A DNA stretch of 64,000 nucleotides, from NCBI RefSeq assembly GCF_032854445.1, contig NC_088298.1, positions 17,133,976 to 17,197,975 of the forward strand, written 5' to 3'. A program made the translations under genes and the position numbers. The notes beneath the pieces were generated by a model. It ran no database searches. It saw only the letters and a list, made by a program, of their open reading frames with translations, and had not been told where the DNA came from. Shown here piece by piece: positions 12,856 through 53,389 of the stretch. The DNA is from Liolophura sinensis. Its lineage: Eukaryota; Mollusca; Polyplacophora; Chitonida; Chitonidae. How positions within the stretch are numbered: position 1 is the first letter of the stretch; each line of letters opens with the position of its first letter.

Positions 12856-13116
12856 TTCATGGGATATGTTTGGCTGAGGGGGTTAGAACACAAGCATGGG
12901 ACAGTGACCCACCCACCAATGCGATCATTGGGTGTCTAGTGCAGCTTATGCTGGCTTTCTCTCAGGCCATACGTGGGAAGGCCTTCCAGCAACCTGCAGA
13001 TGGTTGTAGGTTTTTCCACAGACTCTGCCCGGTTTCCTCCCACCAAACACTGGCTGCCGTTAAAAAAAGTGAAATATTCTTGAGTACGGCGTAAAACACT
13101 AATCAAAGAAATAAAC
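12856..13116 (+). mobile_element. Family A SINE, diverged full-length copy
   Basis: Head tttggctgagggggttagaa, body with ggccttccagcaacctgcag, and end gtaaaacactaatcaaagaa. The tail is reduced. Confidence 0.8.
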
Positions 13117-13448
13117 TGATGTATATATATATAAGTATACATTTTACAGACCGACTTGCAATTGTATACAGCCTAACAAATATATTCAGAATTTAGATTT
13201 ATCCATCTGATATGATGACCAACAATATACTGTAAATATTGTCCATGATACAAAAAACCATGGCATGAAGATCGAGTCTTAGCCTTTGAATTAAAAGCAT
13301 CAAAATGCTTTTAATTCTGTTCAAGAAAATTTAAAAAAAAAAATATTCATGAAGGTAGTTTCCAATACAGTTTCCAGTGGCAGTGTTTATAACTACTTTT
13401 TCCTTTAGCAGTGTTTCGCTTATTTAACAACTATAGGCTAATCACTGA

Positions 13449-13562
13449 TCACACTCTCTTGTTTTGAATTTTTCTGTAAATTGCATTAGGGATATCCAAG
13501 GATTCATCCTGGACAATGACAATGTCAAACTTGGACTTGTACAGCTGAAGTGATTCCTCCAC
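13449..13562 (-). CDS. NT5C3B: NT5C3 last exon
   Basis: 37 codons plus [40 protein letters not shown]. The SYDIVLVQDESL-like segment is characteristic of the family C-terminus. Acceptor gtttttacag. Confidence 0.94.
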   Translation of the reverse strand: MEESLQLYKSKFDIVIVQDESLDIPNAIYRKIQNKRV

Positions 13563-16500
13563 CTGTAAAAACAGAAAATAAATAACACATCTGTACCACA
13601 TAAAAATACATACAGTATTACATTGACGAGTTAGTGAGTGAGTGAGTGCTTGGGGTTTAACGTCGTACTCAACAATTTTTCAATCATATGACGATGAAGG
13701 AATCCTTAGGGTGCATGTACGTGTAATGTGCCTCCTTGTCGCAGGACGGATTTCCACCGCTGTTTTATTTAGTGCTGCTTCACTGAGACGACTTACTGAA
13801 GGCAAGTAAGCCGCCCCGCCCGAGCCATTATACTGATATAGGTCAACCAGTCATTGCACTATCCCCTTCATACTGAACGCCAAGCGAGGAAGTTACAACT
13901 TCCTCTTTTAAAGTCTTAGGTGTGACTCAATCAAGGATTGATCCTGGATCTACCAGTCCCGAAGCGGACGCTCTACCAACTGTGCTATCCGGGCCGGTAT
14001 ATTACATTGATGAAGATTTTTCACGAGAAACTATGTGCCCCTAAAACCACTGAGAATCTCATTTGTGCAATGGCCCCTATACGATCACGTCTCCTGATAG
14101 ATCAATGAATTTTCAATCGGTCAATCAATGTATTCTACACATGGCAAGTGTGTCCAACATGTTACCAAGAATGGTTATAAGAATTCAGACAGCACAGTCG
14201 TATTTCTCAAAGCAGTTGTTTCCAATATTATCCGGACATGACAAACCGATATGCACGTACATCCAGGTCTTGAGGATGTGTCTGCAAATCTCCTACCTTG
14301 AAAATGAGGAAACCTACTTTGACCACAGCTATAACCACAGCGTTACAGATTTAGGACACCCATTTTGACAATAGGCTAGCTACTAGCTGCCTTATATCTT
14401 ATGACTTAGGAAACAGGTTTTGAGAAGGGGCTAGCCACAGCCTTATACCTTTTGATATAGGAAACCTATTTTGAAAAGATGCTAGCTACTAGCTCCCTTA
14501 TATCTTATGACTTAGGAAACCGGTTTTGAGAATAGACTAGCCACAACCTTATACCTTATGATTTAGGAAACCTACTTCGACAATACGCTAGCTACTATCT
14601 CCCTTATATATTATGACTTAGGAAACCTGTTTTGAGGAATAGGATAGCCACAGCCTTATACCTTATGATTTAGGAAACCTACTTTGACAATACGCTAGCT
14701 ACTAGCTCCCTTATATATTATGACTTAGGAAACCTGTTTTGAGGAATAGGCTAGCCACAGCCTTATACCATATGATTTAGGACAATTATTTTCACAATAC
14801 GCTAGCTACTAGCTGCCTTATATCTTATGACTTAGGAAACAGGTTTTGAGGAATATGGCTAGCCACAGCCTTATACCTTATGATTTAGGAAACCTACTTT
14901 GACAATACGCTAGCTACTAGCTCCCTTATATATTATGACTTAGGAAACTGGTTTTGAGAAGAGGAAAGCCACAGCCTTATACCTTATGATTTAGGAAACC
15001 TACTTTGACAATACGCTAACTACTAGCTCCCTTATATCTTATGACTTAGGAAACAGGTTTTGAGGAATAGGCTAGCCACAGCCTTATACCTTATGATTTA
15101 GGAAACCTACTTCGACAATACGCTAGCTACTATCTCCCTTATATATTATGACTTAGGAAACCTGTTTTGAGGAATAGGATAGCCACAGCCTTATACCATA
15201 TGATTTAGGAAACCTACTTTGACAATACGCTAGCTACTAGCTCCCTTATATATTATGACTTAGGAAACTGGTTTTGAGGAATAGGCTAGCCACAGCCTTA
15301 TACCATATGATTTAGGACAATTATTTTCACAATACGCTAGCTACTAGCTGCCTTATATCTTATGACTTAGGAAACAGGTTTTGAGGAATATGGCTAGCCA
15401 CAGCCTTATACCTTATGATTTAGGAAACCTACTTTGACAATACGCTAGCTACTAGCTCCCTTATATATTATGACTTAGGAAACTGGTTTTGAGAAGAGGA
15501 TAGCCACAGCCTTATACCTTATGATTTAGGAAACCTACTTTGACAATACGCTAACTACTAGCTCCCTTATATCTTATGACTTAGGAAACAGGTTTTGAGG
15601 AATAGGCTAGCCACAGCCTTATACCTTATGATTTAGGAAACCTACTTCGACAATACGCTAGCTACTATCTCCCTTATATATTATGACTTAGGAAACCTGT
15701 TTTGAGGAATAGGATAGCCACAGCCTTATACCTTATGATTTAGGAAACCTACTTTGACAATACGCTAGCTACTAGCTCCCTTATATATTATGACTTAGGA
15801 AACTGGTTTTGAGGAATAGGCTAGCCACAGCCTTATACCATATGATTTAGGACAATTATTTTCACAATACGCTAGCTACTAGCTGCCTTATATCTTATGA
15901 CTTAGGAAACAGGTTTTGAGGAATATGGCTAGCCACAGCCTTATACCTTATGATTTAGGAAACCTACTTTGACAATACGCTAGCTACTAGCTCCCTTATA
16001 TATTATGACTTAGGAAACTGGTTTTGAGAAGAGGATAGCCACAGCCTTATACCTTATGATTTAGGAAACCTACTTCGACAATACGCTAACTACTAGCTCC
16101 CTTATATCTTATGACTTAGGAAACAGGTTTTGAGAAGAGGTTAGCCACAGCCTTATACCTTATGATTTAAAAAAAAAAAAAAGTATTTTCAACTTATTTT
16201 TATAATCTAGAGGATGAATGGTGAGTACTTTCTTTTGATGACATGGACACTTAAATCTTTAGAAATGAGTGAGCAAGATTTATGTTTCTTTCCTAACATA
16301 ATACTTCTGAGTCAAAATTAGGAAAGACAGCATCTCGGTATTTGCCTTAATTGTTTGCATAGTCATGCAAAGTTCGTTTACCTTGTGATTTAGGAAGCCT
16401 ATTTTGAGAATGTGCTTGGCATCAGTGGCGCCCTCAGCCATTCGCAGGTCGCCAATCGAATCCCCCAAGAGTATGACATTCTCGCGGTGACGCAGACGAC

Positions 16501-19500
16501 TGAAGTAATCTGATTTGTGGATGGCTGACTCGTTCTTATTAAATGTGTGGATGAGGTCTCCTTTCCAGCCAATCAGTACGCCCTGGAAAATAATTAGGTT
16601 AAGCTTAGACTATATAGAATCATTTCAAATATCTATATTTAAGCCATCACAAATAAAAGGGAAAAAATTAATTTTAACTAGAAACAAGCAAACTCAAAGA
16701 ATGCAATACTGCATATATCGAGCTGTTGATGGACTTGATTGGACAATACATAAAAGGAACCTTCATTTCAAATTTTAGACAATATTTGGAGCTGTTACTG
16801 ACCAGAAACCAGTGAGAAGGACAAATTTGGAATTTATTGAGTGTGCAAAATTTACCCATGGATTGGGAGGGTTTTCTAACTTGATCTGAGTTTTCAGACA
16901 ATAAAATATTTTTTGGTAAAATCAGACTGTCACAATATTTAGTGCTTTTGATATTGCAAGGCAAACTGCTCAAGAATGTCAGATGTACAGAGTAGCAAGG
17001 CAGACCAAAATTAACCCTAACATTCCATAGAGGTGTGGTGTAATTAAGATATGGATAATTGGCCATGAAAATTCAAGATGAATTCTTGAAATATGAATTC
17101 ACAGGAAGATACGATTGATATCTATCTATTTATTTGTACTCAAGAATGCTCACTTGTATGAGATTAAGATTTTAATACTCAATATTCAAAGACACTTCAG
17201 TAGGGAGAAACTGCATACCACTGTGTTCATGTGTTTCACTTTACACAATGGCAGTGAGGTTAAAGAGTGGAACTAGAAACCATACACAACCTGGAGAAGT
17301 GAAACATCCTGTGCAAGGATGATTGACGTCTTACTCAGAACATTATGTTAACATTATTAATGTTCGATTTTATATTGTACTGAAAAAGACGTCATTTCTA
17401 CAGTGTTCGACAACCTAAGTTGGCTACCTCACAAAGCTTTGACTTACAGCCGCTGCATTAAACACAAGAGGCAGATTTGATCTCGTACCTGTTATGCCTG
17501 ATTGGCCATGAACATAGGTCCAGGGCATTCACAGTGAACCAGTTTCATATTAAACTGTCTAAGCCAGAGAGTGCCCGGCAGTACCGCAGATGGTTTAACT
17601 CACCTCTTCATCGAACTCCATGTAATTTGACACGATTTTCATATTGCTGTACAAATGGGCCTGCTGTCGGATAATTTCCTCGATCAGATCCCCAAGTCCT
17701 GCAGAAAATATCAACAGCGGCACTTCTTGTTTGTGGAGCTGTTCAAAAAACCAGTCACAGCCTTCCCTGAAAATACAGATGGAATAAACATGTCAAGCCC
17801 ATGTACATAATGTGCGTTATTTGTTCATAAGTGTCAAACCTCAACTAAAACATGAAATGAGTTTTGCAAATGCCAGTGTTTCAATTACTAGAAAAAAAAG
17901 GGAAGTTATTGATGTCCTGCACTGCTTTTTGCATTGACTACATATACTTTATTTAAATTGTAATTTCAGGGTTCGAACATGTTAATGGTTTCAAATTTCC
18001 AGGTATTTCTTTATACAAAATTTAATAAAACAAATTTATCCAAGAGAAAGTGTACAACATGTACAGTTCCATATTGTAGAAGGTCTTGGTTGAATCGGTT
18101 CTGTAGCCTGGCCCTCAATAGATTAGCCCACAGTACACTTGGCAAGCCAGCTGTTCTCAGTTTCAGGGGTTTTCTTGGCTCAATCTCAAAAACACCTTTT
18201 TTCAGGTGCAGGAAAAGTTACTTTCAATTTCCAGGCTTTTCAATGTTTTCAAAGCCCTGTACAAACTTGGTAAGTTTATTAAAGATCTAATACTACATCT
18301 TGTTTAGCATCCAAGTTTATTAAAGATCTAATGCTACATCTTGTTTAGCATCCCACATCTCATTCTGCTATAATACACCTTATTCTGCATTGGACATATC
18401 ATTCTGCTATAATACATCTTATTCTGCATTGGACATCTCATTCTGCTATAATACACCTTATTCTGCACAGGACATCTCATTCTGCTATAATACACCTTAT
18501 TCTGCATTGGACATATCATTCTGCTATAATACATCTTATTCTGCATTGGACATCTCATTCTGCTATAATACACCTTATTCTGCACAGGACATCTCATTCT
18601 GTTATAATACACCTTATTCTGCATTGGGCATCTCACTCTGCTATAACACACCTTATTCTGCACAGGACATCTCACTCTGCTATAATACACCTTATTCTGC
18701 ATTGGGCATCTCATTCTGCTATAATACACCTTATTCTGCATTGGACATCTCATTCTGCTATAATACACCTTATTCTGCATTGGACATCTCATTCTGCTAT
18801 AATACACCTTATTCTGCACAGGACATCTCATTCTGCTATAATACACCTTATTCTGCATTGGGCATCTCATTCTGCTATAATACACCTTATTCTGCATTGG
18901 ACATCTCATTCTGCTATAACACACCTTATTCTGCATTGGACATCTTATGCTGCTATAATACACCTTATTCTGCATTGGACATCTTATGCTGCTATAATAC
19001 ACCTTATTCTGAATTGGACATCTCATTCTGCTATAATACACCTTATTCTGCATTGGACATCTCATTCTGCTATAATACACCTTATTCTGCATTGGACATC
19101 TCATTCTGCTATAATACACCTTATTCTGCATTGGACATCTCATTCTGCTATAACACACCTTATTCTGCATTGGACATCTTATGCTGCTATAATACACCTT
19201 ATTCTGCATTGGACATCTCATTCTGCTATAATACACCTTATTCTGCATTGGGCATCTCATTCTGCTATAATACACCTTATTCTGCATTGGACATCTCATT
19301 CTGCTATAACACACCTTATTCTGCATTGGACATCTTATGCTGCTATAATACACCTTATTCTGCACTGGACATCTCATTCTGCTATAATACACCTTATTCT
19401 GCATTGGGCATCTCATTCTGCTATAATACACCTTATTCTGCATTGGACATATCATTCTGCTATAATACACCTTATTCTGCACAGGACATCTCATTCTGTT

Positions 19501-22500
19501 ATAATACACCTTATTCTGCATTGGACATCTCATTCTGCTATAATACACCTTATTCTGCATTGGACATCTCATTCTGCTATAATACACCTTATTCTGCACA
19601 GGACATCTCATTCTGCTATAATACACCTTATTCTGCATTGGGCATCTCATTCTGCTATAATACACCTTATTCTGCATTGGACATATCATTCTGCTATAAT
19701 ACACCTTATTCTGCACAGGACATCTCATTCTGCTATAATACACCTTATTCTGCACTGGACATCTCATTCTGCTATAATACACCTTATTCTGCATTGGGCA
19801 TCTCATTCTGCTATAATACACCTTATTCTGCATTGGACATATCATTCTGCTATAATACACCTTATTCTGCACAGGACATCTCATTCTGTTATAATACACC
19901 TTATTCTGCATTGGACATCTCATTCTGCTATAATACACCTTATTCTGCATTGGACATCTCATTCTGCTATAATACACCTTATTCTGCACAGGACATCTCA
20001 TTCTGCTATAATACACCTTATTCTGCATTGGACATCTCATTCTGCTATAATACACCTTATTCTGAATTGGACATCTCATTCTGCTATAATACACCTTATT
20101 CTGCATTGGACATCTCATTCTGCTATAATACACCTTATTCTGCACTGGACATCTTATGCTGCTATAATACACCTTATTCTGCACAGGACATCTCATTCTG
20201 TTATAATACACCTTATTCTGCATTGGACATATCATTCTGCTATAATACAGCTCATTCTGAATTGGACATCTCATTCTGCTATAATACAGCTCATTCTGAA
20301 TTGGACATCTCATTCTGCTATAACACACCTTATTCTGCATTGGGCATCTCATTCTGCTATAATACATCTTATTCTGCATTGGACATCTCATTCTGCTATA
20401 ATACAGCCCATTCTGAATTGGACATCTCATTCTGCAATAATACACCTTATTCTGCACTGGACATCTCATTCTGCTATAATACACCTTATTCTGCATTGGA
20501 CATCTCATTCTGCTAAAATACACCTTATTCTGCATTGGACATCTCATTCTGCTATAATACACCTTATTCTGCACAGGACATCTCATTCTGTTATAATACA
20601 CCTTATTCTGCATTGGACATCTCATTCTGCTATAATACACCTTATTCTGCATTGGACATCTCATTCTGCTATAACACACCTTATTCTGCACAGGACATCT
20701 CATTCTGTTATAATACACCTTATTCTGCATTGGACATATCATTCTGCTATAATACACCTTATTCTGCACTGGACATCTTATGCTGCTATAATACACCTTA
20801 TTCTGCATTGGACATCTCATTCTGCTATAATACACCTTATTCTGCACAGGACATCTCATTCTGCTATAATACACCTTATTCTGCATTGGACATCTCATGC
20901 TGCTATAATACACCTTATTCTGCATTGGGCATCTCATTCTGCTAAAACACACCTTATTCTGCATTGGACATCTCATTCTGCTATAATACACCTTATTCTG
21001 CATTGGACATCTCATTCTGCTATAATACACCTTATTCTGCATTGGGCATCTCATGCTGCTATAATACACCTTATTCTGCACAGGACATCTCATTCTGTTA
21101 TAATACACCTTATTCTGCATTGGACATATCATTCTGCTATAATACACCTTATTCTGCACTGGACATCTTATGCTGCTATAATACACCTTATTCTGCATTG
21201 GACATCTCATTCTGCTATAATACACCTTATTCTGCATTGGGCATCTCATTCTGCTAAAACACACCTTATTCTGCATTGGACATCTCATTCTGCTATAATA
21301 CAGCTTATTCTGCATTGGACATCTCATTCTGCTATAATACACCTTATTCTGCATTGGACATCTCATTTAGAATTCAGCATATTTCTTAGCACCTAGCATT
21401 TAGGACTAGGATATTATTTAGCACCTAACATTTTGTTTGAATAATATTAATATATTATTACTAGTATTATCCGCTTTTTTGCATTTATATTCTTGAGTAC
21501 AGCACAAAACACCAATCAAATAGATAAATAAATAAATACATATTTGGCAATGAACATCTGATTTTACACTATTTAGTATCTGAACCACAATTTTAGCATC
21601 TAACATCAGTATGTACAGGTGCAATTTAGCAAACACATCCAATTTCCATTTACAGTTATTTCTGTAAAAGCCTTTAATTGTAGCAGTAGCCTGACGAGCC
21701 TAATGGACGGAGGATCAAAATAGCTCTCCATTAAGCTGATGGGCAACATAAATCAACCAGAAAAGATATGTTTCATGCTCAAGGCATCCAGTGGCCATAG
21801 CCCTGCAAGTATTTGTACACATATCTATATAGCTGTAACCATGGTAAATGTAAAGATACATGTACATGTACAGTATATGCATGTACATGCACAGTATATA
21901 CGTCTATATGCACAGTATATACGTCTATATGCACAGTATATTCATGTATATTGTACATGCTTACCGCTGGATCAATATACATTCACATGAATTAGTGGCT
22001 ATAAAATTACATAAAAATACTGTAATTCTTCAACCTTTTCCAATGGCCGCAAGGTATTTATTCAAGCATATTCTGAAGGCATTATTCTGCGCAGACTGAT
22101 AAAATTATACTTTTGGTGAAGCCCTCAAATTGGTCAAGCCAAGCTATGTGTTGTCTCCAAAATCATATTAAAAATGTGCATAAATTGCACTGAAAGTTGC
22201 TCTTTCATATGCAAATGGTTGAGGAATTTGGGTAATCAGCATTTTTTCAGGTATGTAATCATGTACCAGTCCAACCCAAATACAGCTTCGTAATTTTACA
22301 TAAAAAAAACTACACAAACCATAAATAAAATATATCCACCAATTTAACTTAGATGTATACATTAAGTTAGTGTACAATCTGGATATGTATTTGATTTTTT
22401 AAAAATTTATTTATATGATTGATGTTTTATGCCGTACTCAAGAATATTTTCCTATACAACGGCAGCCAGCATTATGGTGGTAAGAAACCAGGCGGAACCC

Positions 22501-25500
22501 AGAGGAAACCCACACATGTATATTTTTTGACAAAGGTCATTTTGTCTGGTAAAAAATCAGAGGTCCATAAAAAGATGAGATATATTCTGCTGTGTAACTG
22601 ATTCTAGCATGAATTTCATTGCTGCCAACATCTGCATTTCACTTGCTATGCAGATAAGCAACATGTAAATGTATGCGGTCTAGTACCAGTCATGTTTTGA
22701 AGTTTTATTAATTTTATTTGACTGTCATTTTACGCTGACTCATGAGCATTTCACACATACTGAAATAAATGTACATGCACTTTCATTTCCTTTGTAGAAA
22801 TGCAAAATGCAATGATTAACTTGCCCCTTTTAGATTGGCCATGGTATGATCTGATTACTTGGAACTTTTGGCCACATGCAAGACTGTATCACTTTGCACA
22901 TGATTGTCGTCAGATTCACAAGACACGAGTGAAAGTGGTAAAACTGTCACCAAACTGTGGCTGTCAGATTACCTTTTGCACCCATGGAGCAAGGTCATTG
23001 GTTATGGAAGGTCACTGAAATGGCTGTAAGCACCCTCAATCAAAATCACTCAAATGGCTGTAAGTGCCATCATGTAAGATCACTGAAATGGCTGTAAGTG
23101 CCATCATGCAATATCACTCAAATGGCTGTAAGTGCCATCATGCAAGATCACTCAAATGGCTGTAAGCGCCCTCAATCAAGATCACTCAAATGGCTGCAAG
23201 TGCAATCATGTAAGTTCACTGAAATGGCTGTAAGTACCATGATGCAAGATCACTGAAATGGCTGTGAGTGCCATCATGCAAGATCACTGAAATGGCTGTA
23301 AGTACCATCATGCAAAATCACTGAAATGGCTGTAAGTGAAATTACACAAGATCACTAAAATGGCTGTGGATTTAATGACTGGCGACCTATGATTTTCCTC
23401 ACTTAGCTCACAGGCTTTCCCCATGCTCACTAAGGCACACTACATTGGCAATTACTGCTTGAGTATTTCATAACCAACCCAGTAGTAAAGAACAGAAAAC
23501 ACTTGAGAATGAATACCTCAATTTGGCTTTGGAATCTCGGACCATTTCTTCTAGCTTGTGTTTGGTAACATTGCTCTGTATCAACAACTCATGGCCCAAA
23601 GTCCACCTGAAAGTCAAAAACAGATAACATTCATACCCTTTGATGACACAGAATAAATTGTATAATACACCACTTGGACTATAAAGGTACTTATATTGCA
23701 TTTCTGTATGAAAGTAAGCACACAACATATGTGTAAATTTACCACTTGGACCATATCAGCTGTGCACCCAAACTAACTCAACTGCATTAAAGCTACATGT
23801 AACAAGTACACTTCACAAAAATAGGTTAAGTTTAGTTTTTATGACATATTCACAGACTAAAAAGGTTCCATGCAGAGTGCATGATTCTGAATTGCATTTC
23901 ATAAAACTTCTTCATGCTCAGAACTTTCATGGGGTGTCAGAAACTTTTTATCTACATAAGACCCTCAGAGTTTCAATGTTGTCTGGCTTTTCCTTATAGA
24001 AACAACATATATATTCTTCAGCATGGCATACATACGCATGTACATATAAATTAGTCCCCTACATCTTGGTCAAATAATTCAGAGAAAAGTCTAGGCTTCT
24101 AATTGGTCAATCTGCCTTGGATAAGTTACCACATCTGCTGAACGCAGGCTCCCATGTTGGATATTTTTTCTGTATACGTCTATGTATGGAGTCAGGGACG
24201 AACATGCCGGCCTATAGCAATGCTTGTCGACAATGTACGCGACTTTCCTTGCCTTAATTTTCAAAAGAATTCTAATGATTCAGCAGATAGTAACAACAAC
24301 ATGTGGAAAAACCAACTTCTTGTAACATTCTTTCGAGACAATGAAATTGCATATCCTTGTAAACTGAAACCTGAAGGACTACCTAGCAGTTCACATAAGG
24401 CTAGTATTTTTTCTCAACCAAATCAATGTTCCAAGACATGCCCTGTGCTCTTCTCATCACGTGATTCTTGCATGCGTGCGTGCGTGCTTGGGGTTTAACG
24501 TCGTACTAAACAATTTTTCAGTCAGATGATGACAAAGGAATCCTTAAGAGTGCATGTAATATGCCTCCTTGTTGCAGGATGAATTTTCACTGCTCTCTTA
24601 TCTAGTGCTGGTTCACCGAGATGCCTTACTGAAGGCAAGAAAGCCGCCCTGCCTGAGACATTATACTGATACGGGTGACCCAGTCGTTGCACTATCCCCC
24701 TCATGCTGATGAAGTGAGGAAGTTACAACTTCCCCTTTTAAAGTCTTAGGTGTGACTTGACCCAGGATTGATCCTGAATCTACTGCTCCCGAAGCAGACT
24801 CTCTGCCAACTGTGCTATCGGTGCTACTAGGTGATTCTTGATGCTGGTATCGACTGCACAGTGGCAAGGCGCCCGTGAAAAAAAAAGAAATAAATAAACA
24901 ACAGGTTGGGGTTGGCTGAAGTCTTGGTATTAATTCAAGAAGACTTGTCTGTAAGCTACTCAAGGTGATACACTCCTTATGCCAGCCTGTTGGGTGGGTA
25001 TCGGCCTGATATTTCGTCTCAAAGATTAATATTTCCTCGCGTTTCATGAAAATAATAATCTTCTCAATGAAACATCAGGCTGTACACCCATTCAACACAC
25101 TGATATAACTTATAGTACCTTTTTCTTTGAACTTACAAGTAAACATATACATTTACATGGATAGCTCTCATGCAGTTACAGTTGCAGGTATATGTGTTTT
25201 GTAACCATTAGTCATACATGTGGCACAACTCACAGTTTTGGGAATGTGGACCCAGAAACTTCAACATTAGCCTTTAATAAACTGAACTGTTATATTTTCT
25301 CACCATTCCACCATATATGGATATTTTTCTTCCACTGTCATATTTGGATCTGTTTCTATGGCAAAATACTTCTTTCTGTATTTTACAGCCTGGGAAATTA
25401 AATTCAATTCAAACAATTCATTAAAATTAATACAGTACTCACCATGATGGTAATGCCATTGACAATTTCATTCTTTCAGCAAAAAAATATAATTTTTCAA

Positions 25501-28500
25501 TTTTTTCTTTTATTTGAGTGTTATTAAAATGTTAAACTCAAGATTTATTCACTTCTATCAGTTTATAGCTGGAAGAGACCACAGTGCATGCAGAAAACCA
25601 TACATCCACCTTTGGCTAGTTACTCATGAACTCCCTGACATGTGACATATACATGTACTTCATGTAAGACCAAACCATTGAGTATTATACTAAATCATCC
25701 AATTATTTCCTTAATACTGTCTAGCAAATCAAAACATGTACTCATGAACTCTCTAAGGCCTGACATATACTTCGTATTAGTGGAAGGCAGGTGCTCTCCA
25801 CTAACCTTCATGCAAGACCACACAAAAGAACACAACCACTTACTACTTTTTTTTTGATTGGTGTTTTATGCCGTACTCAAGAATATTTCACTTATACGAC
25901 GGCGGCCAGCATTATGGTGGGTGGAAACCGGGCACAGCCCGGGGGAAACCCACGACCATCCGCAGGTTGTTGGCAGACCTTCCCACTTACGGCCCTTACT
26001 ACTTAAATACGCTCTGGGAATTTGAAACCAAAGCATGTACTCACCTTTTCCCTAAAAAACTCTGGTAATAATGGACTTTCATCCAGGATGTCTGAAACGC
26101 ACAGAAGAAAGAACATCAACAACATTTTATGTAGTCTATAGACATGTACTTACTGAAACTGATTGGTTGATTCACTAAAAGAATATTTCAGTTGTTCCAC
26201 AATAGATAGTTTTACAGGCAGAGGAAACCGCTTGAGAACTCAAGAGTATTTCACACTTGGCTTTTTTGCACGTATATGTACAATACCATAAAAATGCAAA
26301 AGTGGTCAGAGGGGTGTCAATCCGTCATTGGCATCAAGCAAAGTAGTTAAATCAGTTTGTGCATTATCTACATGCAATGGTGTGATACTGGCTTTACATA
26401 AAATCAGAATACAAATCCACTGTTTTTCTTTTTTTTTTTTTTTTTTTGGGGGGGGGGGGAAGATGAGGGGTGGAAGGTGGGGTGTTAATGAATTTGACAG
26501 AAAATATTCCAATGGTCGTCTAATTACAAACAGCTAATTTTTGTCTTATTTCCACACTTGAGAATTTCTCACTTTTACAAAGGACAGCCAGGTTGAAGTG
26601 TCTGGAGAAAACCACCAGCCTTTGGCAACTTACTGGTGATCTCTCCCACAGGTAACATACATGTCATAACAAACTGTCTTCAGGTTGCAGCTAACTGCAT
26701 GTAAAAGAGCACACAAGAAAACATGTGCTATCGACCACATCTTGCCACCTTGGCCTCTAGAGCAATGAAAACAGGACGATCATGAAAATTCTCTCTTGAA
26801 GAATGGAACCCAAGTCATATGTGACATTGTGACCCATAACTTGTGTGACTGAATTGTCAGCACCATAATCCCCTCGCTCAGAACCCACGTGGTACGTGAC
26901 ATTGTGACCCATACCTTGTGTGACTGAATTGTAAGCACCATAATCCCCTGGCTTGTGTCTTAAATATCAAACTATTGTACCTACTTATATCAAAATATAC
27001 GTACCAACCAACAGTGAAGACAAAGCACTTCTGCTCACATAAATATAGGAACAGTGGATCAATACAGGCAAAGTACTTACTATGACACGTATCACAGCGA
27101 ACTCCTTTGTGGATAAATTTGGACAGAGTCATATCGAAGTCTGCAATAACCTGGATGAGGGAATTTAGGAAGGATTTTAGTTTTGACAATTATACAAATA
27201 AAAAGTGTGCACCTTAATCACCAAAAGGAAGAAAACGACAACAAATTCAATTACAGCACACTGGTTCAAACCACAGTGGATGGGTTGGATGTTAGTACAT
27301 GCAGATGTATACTGCACCTAGGCAGGGTGTCAGTATACTGCGCCTAGGCAGGGTGTCAGTATATTGCATCTAGGCAGGGTGTCAGTATATTGCATCTAGG
27401 CAGGGTGTCAGTATACTGTGTCTAGGCAGGGTGTCAGTATACTGAGTCTAGGCAGGGTGTCAGTATATTGCATCTAGGCAGGGTGTCAGTATACTGTGTC
27501 TAGGCAGGGTGTCATGTACATGTACATGTGTTAGTGAACATACTGTACATGTATATGTGGAAGTGAACATACTGTACATGTACATGTGGAAGTGAACATA
27601 TTGTACATGTGGAAGTGAGCATACTGTACATGTACATGTGTTAGTGAACATACTGTACATGTACATGTGGAAGTGAACATACTGTACATGTACATGTGGA
27701 AGTGAACATATTGTACATGTGGAAGTGAGCATACTGTACATGTACATGTGGAAGTGAACATACTGTACATGTACATGTGGAAGTGAACACAGTGTACACG
27801 TGGAAGTGAACATATTGTAAATGTACATGTATGTGGAAGTGAACATACTGTACATGCGGAGCACATAAGAATGTATGTGCAGAAACTTGGGATCTTGATG
27901 GAAGTTCTCCATGGTAATTTCTTTAAAATCCTTATCTTTTTTGCTAGCCAGAGTGAAAAAAAAACAAGAATTCCCTGCTGACTAACCCTATTTTTGTGTA
28001 GTTTTGGCTTACCCTCAACAAAAAAATTGTAGGCCTGACCTTTATACTTGTATGTGTTCCAACTATATAAATAAGAAAAAGACTTGCATGTCAGCTACTG
28101 CAGATACTAGTACGTGTATATTATAGAAAACGTACATAAAAATACTTGTATACAGTACCACTGTGACCTTGAGCTACTTATAATATCTCTGCTCACGACC
28201 AGGTAGGTAATTTAACCCATTTCACCATGTACATGTACATACATGCATGTAAATGTCCACTTTTCCTTTCACTTTACCGTAGAAACGTCAGGTCATTTAA
28301 CATTTTTTACTAGGATTGATCTAAATAACACAACTGGTGTGAATATTTATAAATAAAAACCGAACTAATCAGTTAATCATTAGATGTCCGTAAGTATTAT
28401 TATGCAATCAGACAACTGCAATTTTTATACTAAGTCTAGGCAGGGTGTCAGTATACTGTGTCTAGGCAGTGTGTCAGTATACTGTGTCTAGGCAGGGTGT

Positions 28501-31500
28501 CAGTATACTGTGTCTAGGCAGGGTGTCAGTATATTCCATCTAGGCAGGGTGTCAGTATACTAAGTCTAGGCAGGGTGTCAGTATATTGTGTCTAGGCAGG
28601 GTGTCAGTATACTGTGTCTAAACAGGGTGTCAGTATACTGTGTCTAGGCAGGGTGTCAGTATAATGTGTCTAGGCAGGGTGTCAGTATACTGTGTCTAGG
28701 CAGGGTGTCAGTATACTGTGTCTAGGCAGGGTGTCAGTATACTGAGTCCAGGCAGGGTGTCAGTATAATGTGTCTAGGCAGGGTGTAAGTATACTGAGTC
28801 TAGGCAGGGTGTCAGTATACTGTGTCTAGGCAGGGTGTCAGTATACTGTGTCTAGGCAGGGTGTCAGTATACTAAGTCTAGGCAGGGTGTCAGTATAATG
28901 TGTCTAGGCGGGGTGTCAGTATACTGTGACTGGGTGGGGCTTCAGTATAATGTGACTGGATGGGGTGTCTGTACATTGGCTGGCTGCAATGTCAGCACAC
29001 TACGGCGGGGTGGGGTGTCAGTATACTATGGCTGGGTGGGGTGTCAGTACACTATGGCTGGGTGGGGTGAGAGTACACTATGTGTGCACCGAGACAACAC
29101 TGCTTTAGTACATGTAAACAAACCAATCTCTGAGACATCAGAGATTGTAACTTCTAACTTGTAACTTCAAATCTGAATCAGCTTACTTATTCTACTTTGA
29201 AGTTACAAGTTACAAATTGAACTTTTAACTTCTAATTAAAGATCTCCATTTCCCTGTATGTAGTAGACCAGTAAGAGTGTACCTGTAATCTATCAGGCCC
29301 TCCTTCCATCAACTCCTTCAGCATCTCTGTCACTTTTATTTCATCTCTGATATGAATATTGTTCTGCCGTAATTCATCTATCTGAAACACATACAGATAT
29401 AAAAAATAAAACCAAAGTGCAACTTGATTTGCATATTCAGAAATTTGTAAACTTGCCGAGTATTTGTAGCCATAAGGCTTCTAACATACTGTACATGTGT
29501 TAGTGAACATAGTGTACATGTACATGTGGAAGTGAAAATACTGTACATGTATATGTGGAAGTGAACATATTGTACATGTACATGTGGAAGTGAACATACT
29601 GTACATGTACATGTGGAAGTGAACATACTGTACATGTACATGTGAAAATGAACATATTGTACATGTACTTGTGGAAGTGAACATACTGCACATGTACATG
29701 TGGAGGTGAACATACTGTACATGTACATGTGGAAGTGAACATACTGTACATGTACATGTGGAAGTGAACATATTGTACATGTACATGTGGAAGTGAACAT
29801 ATTGTACATGTACATGTGGAAGTGAACATACTGTACATGTACATGTGGAAGTGAACATACTGTACATGTACATGTGTTAGTGAACATACTGTACATGTAC
29901 ATTTGGAAGTGAACATACTGTACATGTACATGTGGAAGTGAACATATTGTACATGTGGAAGTGAGCATACTGTACATGTACATGTGGAAGTGAACATACT
30001 GTACATGTACATGTGGAAGTGAACACAGTGTACACGTGGAAGTGAACATATTGTAAATGTACATGTATGTGGAAGTGAACATACTGTACATGCGGAGCAC
30101 ATAAGAATGTATGTGCAGAAACTTGGGATCTTGATGGAAGTTCTCCATGGTAATTTCTTTAAAATCCTTATCTTTTTTGCTAGCCAGAGTGAAAAAAAAA
30201 CAAGAATTCCCTGCTGACTAACCCTATTTTCGTGTAGTTTTGGCTTACCCTCAACAAAAAATTGTAGGCCTGACCTTTATACTTGTATGTGTTCCAACTA
30301 TGTAAAATAAGAAAAAGACTTGCATGTCAGCTACTGCAGTACGTGTATATTATAGAAAACATACATAAAAATACTTGTATACAGTACCACTGTGACCTTG
30401 ATCCACTTATAATATCTCTGCTCACGACCAGGTAGGTAATTTAACCCATTTCACCATGTACATGTACATACATGCATGTAAATGTCCACTTTTCCTTTCA
30501 CTTTACCGTAGAAACGTCAGGTCATTTAACATTTTTTACTAGGATTGATCTAATAACACAACTGGTATGAATATTTATATATAAAAACTGAACTAATCAG
30601 TCAATCATTAGATGTCCGTAAGTATTATTATGCAATCAGACAACCGCAATTTTCTTAAAGAATCAAGGTGATTATTTGCTTGCACATATCAATTTATTTT
30701 TTTTTATTTATTTATTTTATTTGTGTTTTTGAATACGCCGTACTTAATATTCTCACTTACACAACAACGGCCAGTATTACGATGGCCGGCAACCTGGCGG
30801 GAAACCCATGGCTCTCCGCAAGTTGCTGGCAGACCCACATACATGTATGGCCATAAAGGCCAGCAAGAGTTGGACTGCAATGGTGAGAGGGTCATTGAGC
30901 CGTGATGGCACACTGACCACTCTCAGATCCCTGTGCATGTAATTATAAAGTAATTTTATTAAAATTTCATTTATTACATGACATGTCAATCCTGAAACTT
31001 GGATCAGTAGTTTTGTTTTGTAGCTCAATTTAAGAACTAGAGCTCAGGCATGTGTGTGAGGAGATAAGACATGCATAAGGTGAACACAAGTGATTGACAG
31101 GTGTGGTGATCACAGTGTAAACTGAATCACATGTTCAGTGTGGGCCAAACTCTAGTCAGGCAGGTGTGTAACACTAGTCAGGTTGACATCAGCAAAATTA
31201 AACTACTATAGTACCTGTACAATGTACCCAGCCCCAGCATCATGAAGCGCTCTCACAGACTTATTAAAGTGAGACTTTCTCATCCCTTTAAAATTGTTAT
31301 TTCTAACGTAATAAAGACGCAAATATTTCTTGATAACGTAAATTCTGGTTAACATATGGTACACCAAATTTCAGCTAAAATAATGAAAAGGAATGTACGA
31401 AATTTAATGATTAAAAGATTGACTTAAGCCTAATGTGGTTCTTGATCCTGGGACCAGTACTCATGTATACTTGTGTATTTGATTTATTTATTGGATTGGT

Positions 31501-43800: not shown

Positions 43801-46800
43801 CTGAAGGCAGTGGTTTACTCTGGACATGCTGGACACTCAGGTCCCCCCCCCCCCACCTCCCCCACTCATTAAACTGGCTAGCATGATTTAACTAAACTAT
43901 TCTGGGGGTTGAAAATGGAGTTAAACAACAATCAAGTAAATAAGTATATAAATAAACGAATTATGAAATTCTCCTTCTGTTTTTTTAAGCTTTCCAGTAT
44001 GGGTGATCCCAGTTGACGTATCTTCCATATGAAGACGTGTGATAACCTGGTGGTAAATGTGCTGGCTCAAGACCAGGTGTTGAAGACATCAAGCCCTTGA
44101 TAAAGATGCCTCCGAAAGCCAAGAAAACTCTCATCACAACAATACCATGCTCTCGCTTTAAGTCAAAGGTATGGCTCAAATTTAGACGTACTCTACATTG
44201 TAAGAATTTTATGTTCAAAGCATAAATTCAGCTGGTTAGCATGCTACTGCAGCGTAATGACCCAGAAGCCTCTCACCAATGTGGTCGCTGTGAGTTCAAG
44301 TCCAGCTCATGCTGGCTTCCTCTCTGGCCGTAAATGGGAAAGCCTGCAGCAACCTGCGGATGGTTGTGGGTTTCCCCAGGCTCTGCCCGGTTTCCTCCCA
44401 CCATAATGCTGAACGGCGTTGTATAAGTGAAATACTTACAGCATAAAGCACCAATCAATGTGACATCTGATTACCACAAACATGACTCTTAACATGTACA
44501 TTAGACCTACAGTGTTGATCTTCTTGACAAAGGGGATAAAATTTTTTAAGACGTTTTAGCCAAATTCTTTACTTCACTGCCTTAGTCCCCTTTTATAGTG
44601 TAAAGCGTATGTAATAGTACCTACTGTAAATCTTCAACCTTTTCCACAACTAAACACTTTTTCCTGAGGAATTTATGCATACAATTGTTAGGAAAATGAG
44701 GCTAAAAATGACCTGTTTGTGTCATTAAAGATGCAAACTGTGCTCTGACCAATGTGGTCACTGTGAGCTCAAGTCCAGCTCATGCTGGCTACCTCTCTGA
44801 ATGTACGTGGGAAGGTCTGGCAACAACATGCAGATGGTCGTGGGTTTTCTCCCCACCATAATGCTGGCCACTGTTGTATAAGTGAAATATTCTTGAGTAG
44901 GACATAAAACACCACTCAAATAAATAAATAAATAAATCCTAAAACTGTGCAAATTATTTCTCTGCACCCCATAGCTCTCTCAAAATGTTGAAAAATATTG
45001 GTTGCAGAGGTGGTTGAAAAGGTTGAAGAATTAGGGTACATGGTAGGGGGCCTCCCTGGCTCAGTTGGTTAGCGCAGTGTAATGACCCAGGAGCCTCTCA
45101 CCAATGCAGTTGCTGTGAGTTCAAGTCCAACTCATGCTGGCTTCCTTTCCGGTCATACGTGGGAAGATCCCTCAGCAACCTGCGGATGGTCGTGGGTTTC
45201 CCTTTTGCTCTGCCCGGTTTCCACCCACCATAATGCTGGCTGTCGTCGTATAAGTGAAATATTCTTGAGTACAGCGTCAAACACCAATCAAATAAATAAA
45301 TAAATAAATCTTTATTTTGTCAGAGTAAAGCTGCTTCAAAGAGTAAAACAGGCCCAGGTAGATCTGCCAGTGGAGTACAAATACCCAGGACTGGAAGGTC
45401 AGCTGGTTTTTTTTGTTTTTTTTTGGGGGGGGGGGGATATTTTTTGCTCCCATTTTATTTTTTTCATGCATACATGTACGTAGAGATGTGGATCATTCTA
45501 CACAGATAATGTTATGATAATACCTTTTGGCTTTATTATTTAGGCTAACTGCATGTACATTGCTTAGGGCTCAGGTGGATAAAGACGGAGCTCACTGCAA
45601 CTACCTGTTTTAGGCCCTTTGATTATGCCAATGAGGTTGCGTGTTCAAATCCAGCTCTTGCCATTTTGGTTGTATCTTTAAGTTGAGAGGTTGGTTAGGT
45701 ACATTGCAAACGTTGACAGCTTCTTTCAGGCACTTCAGTTTCCTTCGTTGATAATCCTGACTGCCATTGTAGAAGTAAAAAATTATTGAGTACATTGTAA
45801 ACACCAGTGAAAACAATATTTAAATACATCCTGTGGGTGCGGGTATGTTGGAGGTGTGCATTTGGAAGGATTAAATACAAAAGGCCTGGAATTGTGATTT
45901 TGACATGTACTTTTCCATTGGTTTTCTGTTCTTGTTCGTTGTTTTTTTTTTTTTTTTTTGTTAATGAGTTGTAAATTCTGTAATCTCAATTACATCTAAT
46001 TAATTATCAGATCTAAATAATTTTCCAGTAATAAACCTGCGGATGGTTTCCCCAGGGATCTGACCAGTTTCCTCCATCCACAATGCTGGCCACGATCATA
46101 TACAATATAAATGAAATATTGAAATGAAAACACCAATCAGATAAACAAATTACATTATCCAATGATAATCATATCATTTTAATCTTAACCAGCCATGATG
46201 GTGGCCTCAAGAAGCGGAGTCGTCCCCCTGTTTCCAAACCCCGTGCTGGATACACTCTTTACTCTAGCGATTCTGAGGAGCGGATTGGAGAGGTTGATAA
46301 GGGACTTAATCGATGTGCAAGTATCGTCAAGCAGATGTTGGAGGTTCGTAAAGGTGAGCTCTCAGTCTTTTACATTTACTTGCTTAATAGAAAATATTTT
46401 TTCGCCAATATGCAACTTTCTCTTTGTCACCTGTAATATAAAGCTGAAGGGCCTTCTTTTGTCATAGCCCGAGTAGCCCGAGGCGGGGTTTTGAGTTTTA
46501 CATTTTTGTCATCAAACATGAAAGCATGGTGAAAGTCCAGCTGTATCGTGTTACTTGTCAAAATGTTACACAGCTTTTGCTGATATTAATATACGGATCA
46601 CCTTTCTCGCCTTCAAGAACTTAAAGTTCACAAGGTCAGCACCTCCGTTTACTCCATCGTTCGTCCATTCGCAAAAATATCTTTTTGTGAAATTTTTCAG
46701 GCGTCCATTTTCTAGGAAATGCAATCGAAAAAAACGTGTAGTTATCTGACATTTCTGACAGGTGACATGGTACTGTATGACTTTTTCTACCTTCAGCAGT

Positions 46801-49800
46801 AAAAGAGTTTGACCTTGAAACTCTCTTATCAGTTAAATTTAATGGGTCCTTTGTCAAACACTAGTCAGCTTTTCCCCTCTAACTCATAGTTTGGAGCACC
46901 CGGGTTCACCCCACCGAGTGGGATATGATAAATAACATGGAGCTGAATGGGTGAATTGCTGAGATTTGCCTATGCCTGAAGTATAAAGTGGCACAGGACA
47001 TTGAAACTATCATATCTGAAGACTAGATTCATGCTGATTACTTTTCCTGAAAGAATTTTTTAACTAAAGGCTATATTTTTCATTCTTTGTGCTAAAGTTT
47101 AAATTCAATGTCTATCTCACCTGGGGTGAGTTGGGTCTGTTTTCACCTCCAGTACTCTTGTCATGTGACTAAAGAGTGTACTGATGATTGGCTCACATCA
47201 GCTATGACATCATCAAAAAACTATAATGAATTGTATTTTGAAGGTGTGGGTAAAGTGCCAAAAGGAGACCTGAAGATGGTGGCGCCCCCCAGCAGCAAGC
47301 CTCGTCAAGCAGTCACAAGGGAGATTATTCATCCCGCTGCCAACCCCACCCACAGCCCTAAGCAATTGAATCAAGTCCCTGTTGTTATTCCCACTGCTGA
47401 CATGGATGGTAAGCCACTGGATTAATAAATGCCTTTCAACAAGTGCTTCCTCTCTGGCCGTACATGGGAAAGTTTGTCAGTGGATGGTCGTGAATTTCCC
47501 CTGAGTTTAGCCTGATTTATTCCTAATGCCGGCCGCAGTTGTATAAGTGAAATACAAGTCAAATAAGTGCTTCCTAACTTGTAATCAGAACAGAAGTGAT
47601 GTATAGTCATGCACATTTTGGTGTTTGTCTCTGTTTTGCCAAAGACAGAGGATTTTGTGTGATGAAGTTTGAATAAAATAAATATTTGTTATGAATAATA
47701 TCTTAATATCTTCATATTTTAATATTCAACATTCTATTCATTATATATTTTGGAGCCTCTGTGGCACAGTTGGTTAGCGCGCTAGCGCAGCGTAATGACC
47801 CAGGAGCCTCTCACCAGTCACTGTGAGTTCAAGTTGAGCTCGTGCTGGCTTCCTCTCAGGCCACATGTGGGAAGGTCTTCCAGCAACCTGTGGATGGTCA
47901 TGGGTTTCATCCGGGCTCTGCTCGGTTTCATCCCACCATAATGCTGGCTGCCATCATATAAATGGAATATTCTTGAGTAAGGCGTAAAACACCAATCAAA
48001 TAAATACATAAATTATATATTACAAGGGCAGAACTGTAGACAAGGGCAGACTTATGTATGGAATAACTAAGGTTTGGGACATCTTGTATGTGTATGACAT
48101 TGTCTTGGTGTTTTATTATATCATCTCAGATTGAAGTGTCATGAAATAAGATTTTTCTTTTTTTCGACATCGCACATGTGATGGAAGTACCAAAAATCTC
48201 CATAAAGTACACTGTATGTGAAAGAACACATTTATCAGGAAATAAAATCAAGATATTTCATCTTTATATAAATAATAAATAAATTTTTATATGATAGTAG
48301 AATTTATTGTAAAATTAATACCCAACTGCTGTTAAGGTGGTTGAAATTTTAATTTAGTTATAAGTTTCTGATTTGGTACTAATTCACATGGTTGTATCTA
48401 CATGTGGCCGTTCATGCGTGTTCAAGAGATGGAGACAAACTCTAAAGCATCACTTTTGCCGTAGCCAATCCATTCTTGAGCTAAGGAGGCTGTGTGTTCA
48501 AATCGAGCTCTAGCTAGATCGGATGCACCTTTTAAATTTAGTCAGGAAGTCTAGTCAGGTACCAGTACAGGTGCCTGATATTAGAAGATGCATGGTTTAA
48601 TCCAAGTACTCTTGTTTCCTTACAGTACAATACTGATAATAATTAAGACCTCCTTACTATAAATTGACCGTTATTTGATAAAAGTTGTAAAACAGTCAAT
48701 CAAGTTAATGTGTATTTACCAGCAAACACTGGTATCAGTTAAATGTGTGATGAAATCTTGAATGTAGCATAAAAAATAAAGTCAAATTAGAAAGTCCAGA
48801 AAAGCTTGGACTGTTGGTATAGAAATTGTTGATGTGTGATAATAATCTAATAGTTAATAATAATTAAGTCGAGGCTCCATCACATACAAATAAAAGGTGA
48901 ATTTCAGTATTATTATTATTATTATATTATTATTATTATTATTATTATTGATTCCAGGTGCAACTATGAGTCTCAAACAGTGTATATTCAATAGTTGGAG
49001 TACACTGTGTGTACAGCTAACATTTTGCGTATGTAATCCTTTTCTTTTGCGTTCTTTTGTCTTTCATTTGCAGAATCTGTTCCACAGAAGAGAGGCCCGT
49101 CTACGCAACAGCCACAGAAGATGATGGTGCAACCACGGTTTAACAAACGGTTAGCGACTTCAACACCAGATCCAGATAAGATGGAACCAGAGGATACGGG
49201 AGCTTTGAATGGTTACATTCAGAAAACTGCTACTTCGGATCACTCAAGAAACAACACTCAAGGTATTCCAACAGTAAAATCTACGGGCACAAATCAGGGA
49301 GGTTTACTTCAGCAACTTCTGGATCATGATCCGAGGCAAGATCGTAGTCAATCTGCAGGAGGGTCTGTGGATCGTCAGGTTGTTATTGGTGTGCCGCAAG
49401 GAGCTGGCCTTCAACCACTACAGTTTAAAGAAAATTTAAATCCTATGGATCAGAGGTCTGGGTGTACTACAGGATCAGCACAACAGTACTTACAACCCAG
49501 GATTTCTCCAAGATTGATTCAGAATGGCCGGAATACTGCACAGTATCAGTGTCAGGCAGAGTTATCCGAGCAGCAGACTGGCTCAGGGTCTGGTGTGCAT
49601 TGGCAAACCTGTGTAAGTCAGGAGGTGAAGGGTGGACCTGTATGTTTAAATGAGGTGAGTCCAGTCCCTCAGACTTATGCGAGAACGTCCGACATACAGC
49701 CAGGGATGGAAAATTTTCTGGACGAAAGCGAATATCAGCAATTGCCAAGTCCACAATCTGTTTTCCAGTCATACAAAGGAATTTCCTCAAGAATGCCAGA

Positions 49801-52391: not shown

Positions 52392-53275
52392 GATGTAAGA
52401 AGAGGTACACTACCATGTGACCTATCATAAAATGGCTAACGGGAGAAGAAGAGCTACACTACCACGTGACCTATCATAAAATGGCTAACGGGAGAAGAAG
52501 ACCTACACTACCACGTGACCTGTCATAAAATGGCTAACGGGAGAAGAAGAGCTGCACTACCACGTGACCTATCATAAAATGGCTAATGGGAGAAGAAGAC
52601 CTACACTACCACATGACCTATCATAAAATGGCTAATGGGAGAAGAAGACCTACAATACCACGTGACCTATCATAAAATGGCTAACGGGAGAAGAAGAGCT
52701 GCACTACCACGTGACCTATCATAAAATGGCTAATGGGAGAAGAAGACCTACACTACCACGTGATCTATCATAAAATGGCTAATGGGAGAAGAAGACCTAC
52801 ACTACCACGTGACCTATCATAAAATGGCTAACAGGAGAAGAAGAGCTACACTACCACATGACCTATCATAAAATGGCTAACGGGAGAAGAAGATCTACGC
52901 TACCACATGACCTATCATAAAATGGCTAACAGGAGAAGAAGAGCTACACTACCATGTGACCTATCATAAAATGGCTAACAGGAGAAGAAGAGCTACACTA
53001 CCATGTGACCTATCATAAAATGGCTAACAGGAGAAGAAGACCTACACTACCATGTGACCTATCATAAAATGGCTAACAGGAGAAGAAGAGCTACACTACG
53101 GCGTGACCTATCATAAAATGGCTAACAGGAGAAGAAGAGCTACACTACCACGTGACCTATCATAAAATGGCTAACAGGAGAAGAAGAGCTACACTACCAT
53201 GTGACCTATCATAAAATGGCTAACAGGAGAAGAAGAGCTACACTACCGTGTGACCTATCATAAAATGGCTAACGG
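52392..53275. repeat. 49-bp minisatellite, about 18 copies, E-box in each unit
   Basis: Unit: ctacactaccacgtgaccta, tcataaaatggctaacggga, gaagaagag. Of eighteen units, eight carry CACGTG and eight carry CATGTG or CACATG. It sits in the CCDC14 intron after exon 5. Confidence 0.93.
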
Positions 53276-53389
53276 GAACATGAATGATGTGTTAGAAAAT
53301 TCTAGTCTCTTATTATCTATATTCTTGTCCATTTTGAATATGCAGCTGGCTATCTATGTAGGTCTCAAAAACTCCATATTAGCCCTCCT

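Follow-up and report, generated by a model that had tools for sequence, protein, structure and literature searches.

An intronic minisatellite probably derived from the donor edge of a 5'-nucleotidase exon in Liolophura sinensis

Background

Minisatellites consist of head-to-tail units of roughly 10-100 bp, repeated in arrays of hundreds to thousands of bases, and usually leave no trace of the source of their first unit. An array on the minus strand at 14296-16170 of a 64,000-bp window (the whole stretch of DNA analysed) of Liolophura sinensis raises the question of whether its unit was copied from the end of the exon beside it, together with the splice donor, and whether the copied donors bear on the splicing of the gene. 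The first-pass annotation of this stretch had read the array as a copied exon-intron boundary that supplies decoy donors. The reading favoured here, to which a probability of roughly 0.8 is attached, is that a local copy of the exon edge was doubled and amplified, and that the result is now an intronic minisatellite free of selected function.

The host gene and its intron

The array is hosted by a minus-strand gene of the cytosolic 5'-nucleotidase III-like (UMPH-1) kind. In this gene, the penultimate recognised coding exon (16382..16583, minus strand) matches PF05822 (E 3.7e-25 over 16382-16582) and cytosolic 5'-nucleotidase 3 in the PDB (E 1.8e-22), while a further UMPH-1 exon is found at 17607-17768 (minus strand; PF05822, E 5.1e-20). 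The next and last recognised coding exon, the acceptor of which was read from the sequence, occupies 13452..13562 (minus strand; PF05822, E 5.5e-06). Solved relatives of the penultimate exon include cytosolic 5'-nucleotidase III chains (best E 1.8e-22) and 7-methylguanosine phosphate-specific 5'-nucleotidases, and each of the four UMPH-1 matches that a search of the assembly (609 Mb in 632 contigs) listed is an exon of this one gene. The intron that hosts the array extends over 13563-16381 (2.8 kb), of which the array occupies about two-thirds.

In gene orientation the penultimate exon ends in ...CTTCCTAAATCACAAG/GTAAAC, with the boundary (marked here and below by a slash) at 16382/16381, and the real donor GT, in the context AAG/GTAAAC, was located at 16380..16381 (minus strand) on the basis of the sequence and of donor scoring. 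The exon end reads HILKIGFLN, against HILKIGYLN in solved nucleotidases, and aligns with these up to the last residue of the exon; the exon is thus taken to be the source and the array to be the derived sequence. When the exon is read on into the intron its open frame (16280-16609) meets a stop within the spacer that separates the donor from the array. This spacer (16171..16381, minus strand) ends, in gene orientation, in a poly-T run (poly-A on the plus strand), and a query of 199 of its bases (16183-16381) matches only this place in the assembly.

Two other features were observed in the introns of this gene. In the same intron, the stretch at 13630-14000 has a tRNA-like string at its end and resembles a mollusc SINE; ARAGORN identified no tRNA genes in 13000-17000, and no known RNA genes reached the gathering score in 13400-16700. 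Between other exons of the gene, a 3-kb array of 39-bp units, a multiple of three, occupies 18355-21367, and is open for more than 1000 codons on each strand but likely non-coding.

Anatomy and growth of the array

Tandem Repeats Finder delimited a repeat of period 107 at 14348-16169 (17.1 copies, score 3008), bearing out the earlier description of a tandem array of two half-units in a nucleotidase intron, and by eye the array extends from 14296, with degenerate copies at either end. With 107-bp units in 17 copies, arranged head to tail over 1.9 kb, it is a minisatellite by the usual definition. Half-unit pattern counts and lag identity resolve each unit into an A and a B half-unit, and the units into 535-bp higher-order blocks. 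A and B alternate, with steps of 55 and 51-53 bp through most of the array, and linkers of 14-16 bp separate their cores. A slightly broader pattern recovers 34 half-unit cores (17 A and 17 B), beyond which there is a truncated copy at the proximal edge and a partial copy at the distal edge. On the same strand, some 211 bp separate the real donor from the start of the array, which follows the poly-T run; this agrees well with the approximately 200 bp given previously.

At a lag of 535 bp, equivalent to five 107-bp units, identity is 0.85 across the whole array, and within 14591-15599 it rises to 99.4 % (6 mismatches listed). The most diverged copies include the outermost distal ones. Growth by 535-bp blocks, which are about 99 % alike, looks recent, and the combination of divergent edges and homogeneous blocks, the usual signature of exchange between misaligned copies, points to a recent spread of five-unit blocks. 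An unusual secondary structure was considered as a driver of expansion and rejected, with z values of -0.45 (DNA) and -0.35 (RNA) obtained on folding two units.

Likeness of the repeat unit to the exon edge

The segment that can be recognised in the array by alignment is the exon-donor edge at 16379..16417 (minus strand), consisting of the last 36 exonic nucleotides and the GTA of the donor. With the array excluded, the window was divided into 300-base tiles and the doubled unit was aligned to each; tiles containing the exon edge scored 26 and all others at most 15 (mean 8.8, s.d. 1.6, the exon tiles counted in). Across 5000 dinucleotide shuffles of the 403-bp edge region the mean score was 9.3 and the maximum 18, giving a Gumbel p of about 8e-8 for the observed 26, and the pairwise alignment therefore upholds the proposal that the unit matches the exon edge better than random. 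When 60 shuffled units were aligned to the window, again with the array left out, their best scores averaged 15.4, with a maximum of 21.

Over the 39 positions of the edge, consensus A is identical to the exon at 32 and consensus B at 28, one extra C found in many B copies having been dropped to hold the alignment columns in register. At the exonic positions alone consensus A is identical at 29/36, close to the 30 of 36 reported for the first half-unit in the first-pass annotation. Single copies range from 25 to 32 identical positions for A and from 25 to 30 for B. For one A copy, identity per ten-base block is 6, 9, 9 and 8 in the segment, falls to 4, 5, 4, 3 and 0 into the intron, and does not exceed 4 before the segment. 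Past the GTA, the match into the intron (14/30 for one A copy and 6/30 for one B copy) is too weak to show continuation, and the demonstrable likeness is the last 36 exon bases and GTA, no more.

The A and B consensus sequences agree at 30/39 sites, and the exon concurs with them at 26 of these 30. The four differences that A and B share relative to the exon fall at three third codon positions, all silent in the exon frame, and one first position; the chance of three silent third positions is about 11 % by hand arithmetic and is supportive only. At the nine sites where A and B differ, the exon has the A base at six, the B base at two and neither at one. The exon frame can still be read in the A copies, as GFLNHK in 11/17 and as GFLNHM in one more. 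In the phylogeny of half-units that had been suggested as a check, A and B copies form separate groups (about 54 bases, rooted by choice on the exon edge, no support values read). The two half-units would thus share an ancestor nearer to the exon than either is today.

Uniqueness of the unit and comparison with control arrays

The assembly search skips very common words and its counts are lower bounds. Within this scope, all 17 matches listed for the unit are inside the array, and the 127-base query containing the exon edge, like the spacer query, has a single match. For the distal flank one more match, a partial one, was listed on contig C6 (81 % over about 98 bases). Within the reach of this search, the unit is no dispersed repeat.

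Fifteen array units, picked from 46 Tandem Repeats Finder rows, served as a control set and were tested against the rest of the window, and also against six recognised exons, each extended by 30 bases at both ends. For the unit of the 14296-16170 array the score is 26 on its own exon and does not exceed 10 on the remaining five. None of the other fourteen units scores above 16 on the six exons, a value reached by two of them. The 75-bp unit of 26806-26953 does so at 17671-17698, inside a nucleotidase exon (7/2000 shuffled units reach 16), and the 27-bp unit of 50433-50628 at 23584-23611, across the acceptor edge of a nucleotidase exon 27 kb away (3/2000 shuffled units). Window-wide, the best of 12 shuffles is likewise 16 for each of these units, and their exon likeness is probably due to chance. 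They nevertheless temper the claim that the array at 14296-16170 stands alone, and exon-like scores are not confined to it.

Against the rest of the window, two control units exceed 26 outside their own arrays, namely those of 27307-27514 (66) and 27515-27856 (85), both with sister arrays in the window. Next come scores of 22, 21, 20 and 20. The score of 22 belongs to the 49-bp array at 52397-53277, the unit of which matches 46752-46797, with an acceptor-like string. The flank and unit of this array match two places on contig C6, and it thus probably grew from a dispersed element. Two further features of the window were noted. The 27-bp repeats at 50433-50628 are contained in a 640-codon open frame at 49037-50959 (plus strand), perhaps a coding exon. 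Two kinds of minisatellite, with units of 26 and 29 bp, follow each other at 27307-27856 and again, in unchanged order, at 28426-30092, which points to a larger tandem duplication.

Fate of the copied donor sites

Donor-like sites were scored with a donor table and by U1 duplex energy. The real donor, AAG/GTAAAC, scores 3.70 and -6.8 kcal/mol by these two measures. The first half-unit had been described as keeping the donor GT and the second as having lost it, and the first statement holds with one exception among the A copies, the second throughout the array. Among the 17 A copies, twelve carry AAG/GTATAA, four ATG/GTATAA and one is without the GT, while the truncated proximal copy raises the count of AAG/GTATAA to 13 and that of donor-register GTs to 17 in total. 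The B copies retain the GT in 0/17 cases, with eight reading AAGATATAA and nine AATATATAA. The repeat unit does resemble a 5' splice site, as in the human 6-16 minisatellite discussed below, although its 17 donor-register GTs are weak and its B half-units lack the GT throughout. The 13 AAG/GTATAA sites score 0.98 and -5.7 kcal/mol each and the four ATG/GTATAA sites -1.12 and -4.2 kcal/mol each, and all 17 thus fall below the real donor by both scores. The number of potential decoys put forward in the first-pass annotation, about 17, is therefore correct.

It is improbable that the array serves as a set of functional decoys, whether by competition with the real donor or by titration of U1 snRNP. 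This account can draw on the position of the 17 donor-register GTs, and of a stronger site at 14296, downstream of the real donor, and on the higher density of GT sites in the array than in the window at scores of at least 0 (14.3 vs 9.0 per kb) and at least 2 (5.3 vs 2.7 per kb). However, nine of the ten array sites scoring at least 2 are AAA/GTAGGT, which lies within the copied exon part and not in the copied donor, and sites at or above the score of the real donor are rarer in the array (0.53 vs 0.98 per kb). Of the 4094 GTs on the minus strand of the window, 9.2 % score at least as high as AAG/GTATAA and 20 % at least as high as ATG/GTATAA, compared to 1.5 % for the real donor. Furthermore, a single pre-mRNA with seventeen weak sites would probably not titrate a snRNP as abundant as U1. 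Considering the weakness of the A sites, the loss of the GT from every B copy and the predominance of AAA/GTAGGT among the higher-scoring sites, the donor-like sites are better interpreted as relics than as a selected decoy set, and the earlier suggestion of U1 titration or mis-splicing is not borne out.

The exception in strength is the partial copy at the distal edge (14294..14332, minus strand), which is identical to the exon edge at 25/39 positions and carries AAG/GTAGGA with its G at 14296. With scores of 4.55 and -9.2 kcal/mol, matched or exceeded by 0.7 % of the minus-strand GTs in the window, this site surpasses the real donor by both measures and is the strongest donor-like site of the intron. 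It represents the one plausible cryptic donor, the use of which would give a truncated product on account of the stop within the spacer, and could at most result in rare cryptic splicing.

A beneficial role, in which U1 bound at weak downstream sites aids exon definition or guards the intron against premature polyadenylation, is very unlikely. Donor-like sites are present in the array, a published study deals with how U1 suppresses polyadenylation (PMC3826338), and, in the part of the account consulted, U1 binding downstream of the donor aided exon definition in PAH intron 11 (PMC5933811); the PAH variants that matter there are however at +17 and +20, whereas the array begins about 211 bp away. 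A more elaborate version would have the exon edge and its donor seed a self-expanding array, with the number of weakly U1-pairing copies and the 14296 site tuning exon definition or the level of a truncated transcript. Array length would then act as a heritable dial for the nucleotidase gene, a notion that must be considered highly speculative.

Origin of the array

The claim that an exon-intron boundary was copied into a tandem array is well supported by the alignment, by the uniqueness of the sequences involved and by the agreement between A, B and the exon, and an origin by copying of the exon-donor edge into the intron, followed by amplification, can be proposed from these sequence comparisons. 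Neither the array nor the exon edge matched any locus but this one in the assembly search, and a local copy is therefore the preferred interpretation. The course of events may be envisaged as follows. About 39 bp, comprising the last 36 coding bases and the GTA of the donor, would have been copied into the next intron, approximately 211 bp downstream. The copy would then have doubled, and the two copies diverged into A, with the GT kept, and B, with the GT lost. The 107-bp dimer was presumably amplified by replication slippage or unequal exchange, for which the repeat pattern is in evidence and the process conjectural, and later growth would have proceeded in 535-bp blocks of five units. The weakness of the donor sites suggests that the array is now spliced out with the intron and has no selected function.

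Points that tell against the copy model include the 14-16 bp linkers, which have no demonstrated source, and the unexplained distance of 211 bp between donor and array. A tandem duplication that took in both the edge and the 211-bp spacer and left the array to grow between the two spacer copies was considered and rejected, since the distal flank does not align with the spacer clearly better than shuffled sequence does. Four gap settings were compared with 1000 shuffles each, and in the most favourable the observed local score was reached by 87/1000 shuffles and by 233/940 real stretches of the window; the idea had originated in an apparent long alignment obtained with loose gap costs. Nor could the distance be attributed to a dispersed element inserted after the donor, as the spacer matches one place only.

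There is little to suggest that the array is instead the remnant of a tandem duplication of the whole exon, of which the donor edge alone was amplified. The downstream position of the array on the same strand, with the donor edge kept in frame, would accord with such an event, as would the alignment of the exon with 13563-14290 (score 13, reached by 37/1000 shuffles). The score of 8 against the spacer is however reached by 951/1000 shuffles, and no more than 36 exonic bases can be recognised in the array. Alignment to the spacer and to 13563-14290 thus disclosed no whole exon copy in the neighbouring intron, as would be expected of a tandem or mutually exclusive exon. That an AT-rich repeat unit should resemble the exon edge by chance, despite the shortness of the match (39 bp), the many arrays in the window and the two control units that reach 16 on one of six exons, is scarcely credible given the Gumbel p for the 403-bp region, an exon-edge score that is outlying window-wide and the ceiling of 16 among the other fourteen units.

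Significance and comparison with known systems

Probably the array is neutral, and as a minisatellite it is unusual in the clarity of its origin. Because its presumed source survives as a conserved exon, the array reveals its origin, the direction of copying and, in part, the order of the steps, and the disappearance of donor signals can be traced from copy to copy. Whether arrays of weak donor copies are harmful to splicing can likewise be put to a natural test at this locus, the expectation being that they are not.

The nearest published case, judging from the accessible part of the report, is the minisatellite of the human interferon-induced gene 6-16 (IFI6/G1P3), the downstream units of which are said to be used as donors, yielding three mRNAs (Turri, Cuin and Porter 1995; PMC4526556). 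Both arrays consist of repeat units within a gene and comprise several donor or donor-like sites. The array described here, however, lies about 211 bp inside the intron and incorporates a recognisable coding stretch of the adjoining exon, and its donors are predicted while those of 6-16 are reported as used. Duplication of an exon-intron boundary has also given rise to a second donor in OCT1, where, according to the portion of the article available, alternative splicing affects 38-52 % of minigene transcripts and 0.3-0.6 % of those in liver (PMC8137991). A single copy at the junction is involved there, as opposed to many distant and diverged copies here, and the disparity between minigene and liver, with less than 1 % in the latter, indicates that donor use is not predictable from sequence alone. 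In the potato RdRp gene, as far as the consulted text describes it, a duplicated segment likewise crosses a splice boundary, and tandem duplication across the intron-exon boundary resulted in the gain of an intron (PMC4974935), whereas the copies in the nucleotidase gene are wholly within an existing one.

From the parts of the 6-16 and OCT1 accounts considered, neither is an array seeded by the coding edge of an exon. No intronic minisatellite derived from an adjacent exon edge was found among the papers listed by a literature search that covered titles and the beginnings of abstracts, with subscription papers mostly outside its scope, and that does not establish absence in print. Ordinary intronic minisatellites with higher-order structure show tandem units, diverged copies at the edges and homogeneous blocks in the middle. 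The nucleotidase array shares all of these features, but differs in that coding sequence outside it can still be recognised as the presumed single-copy progenitor.
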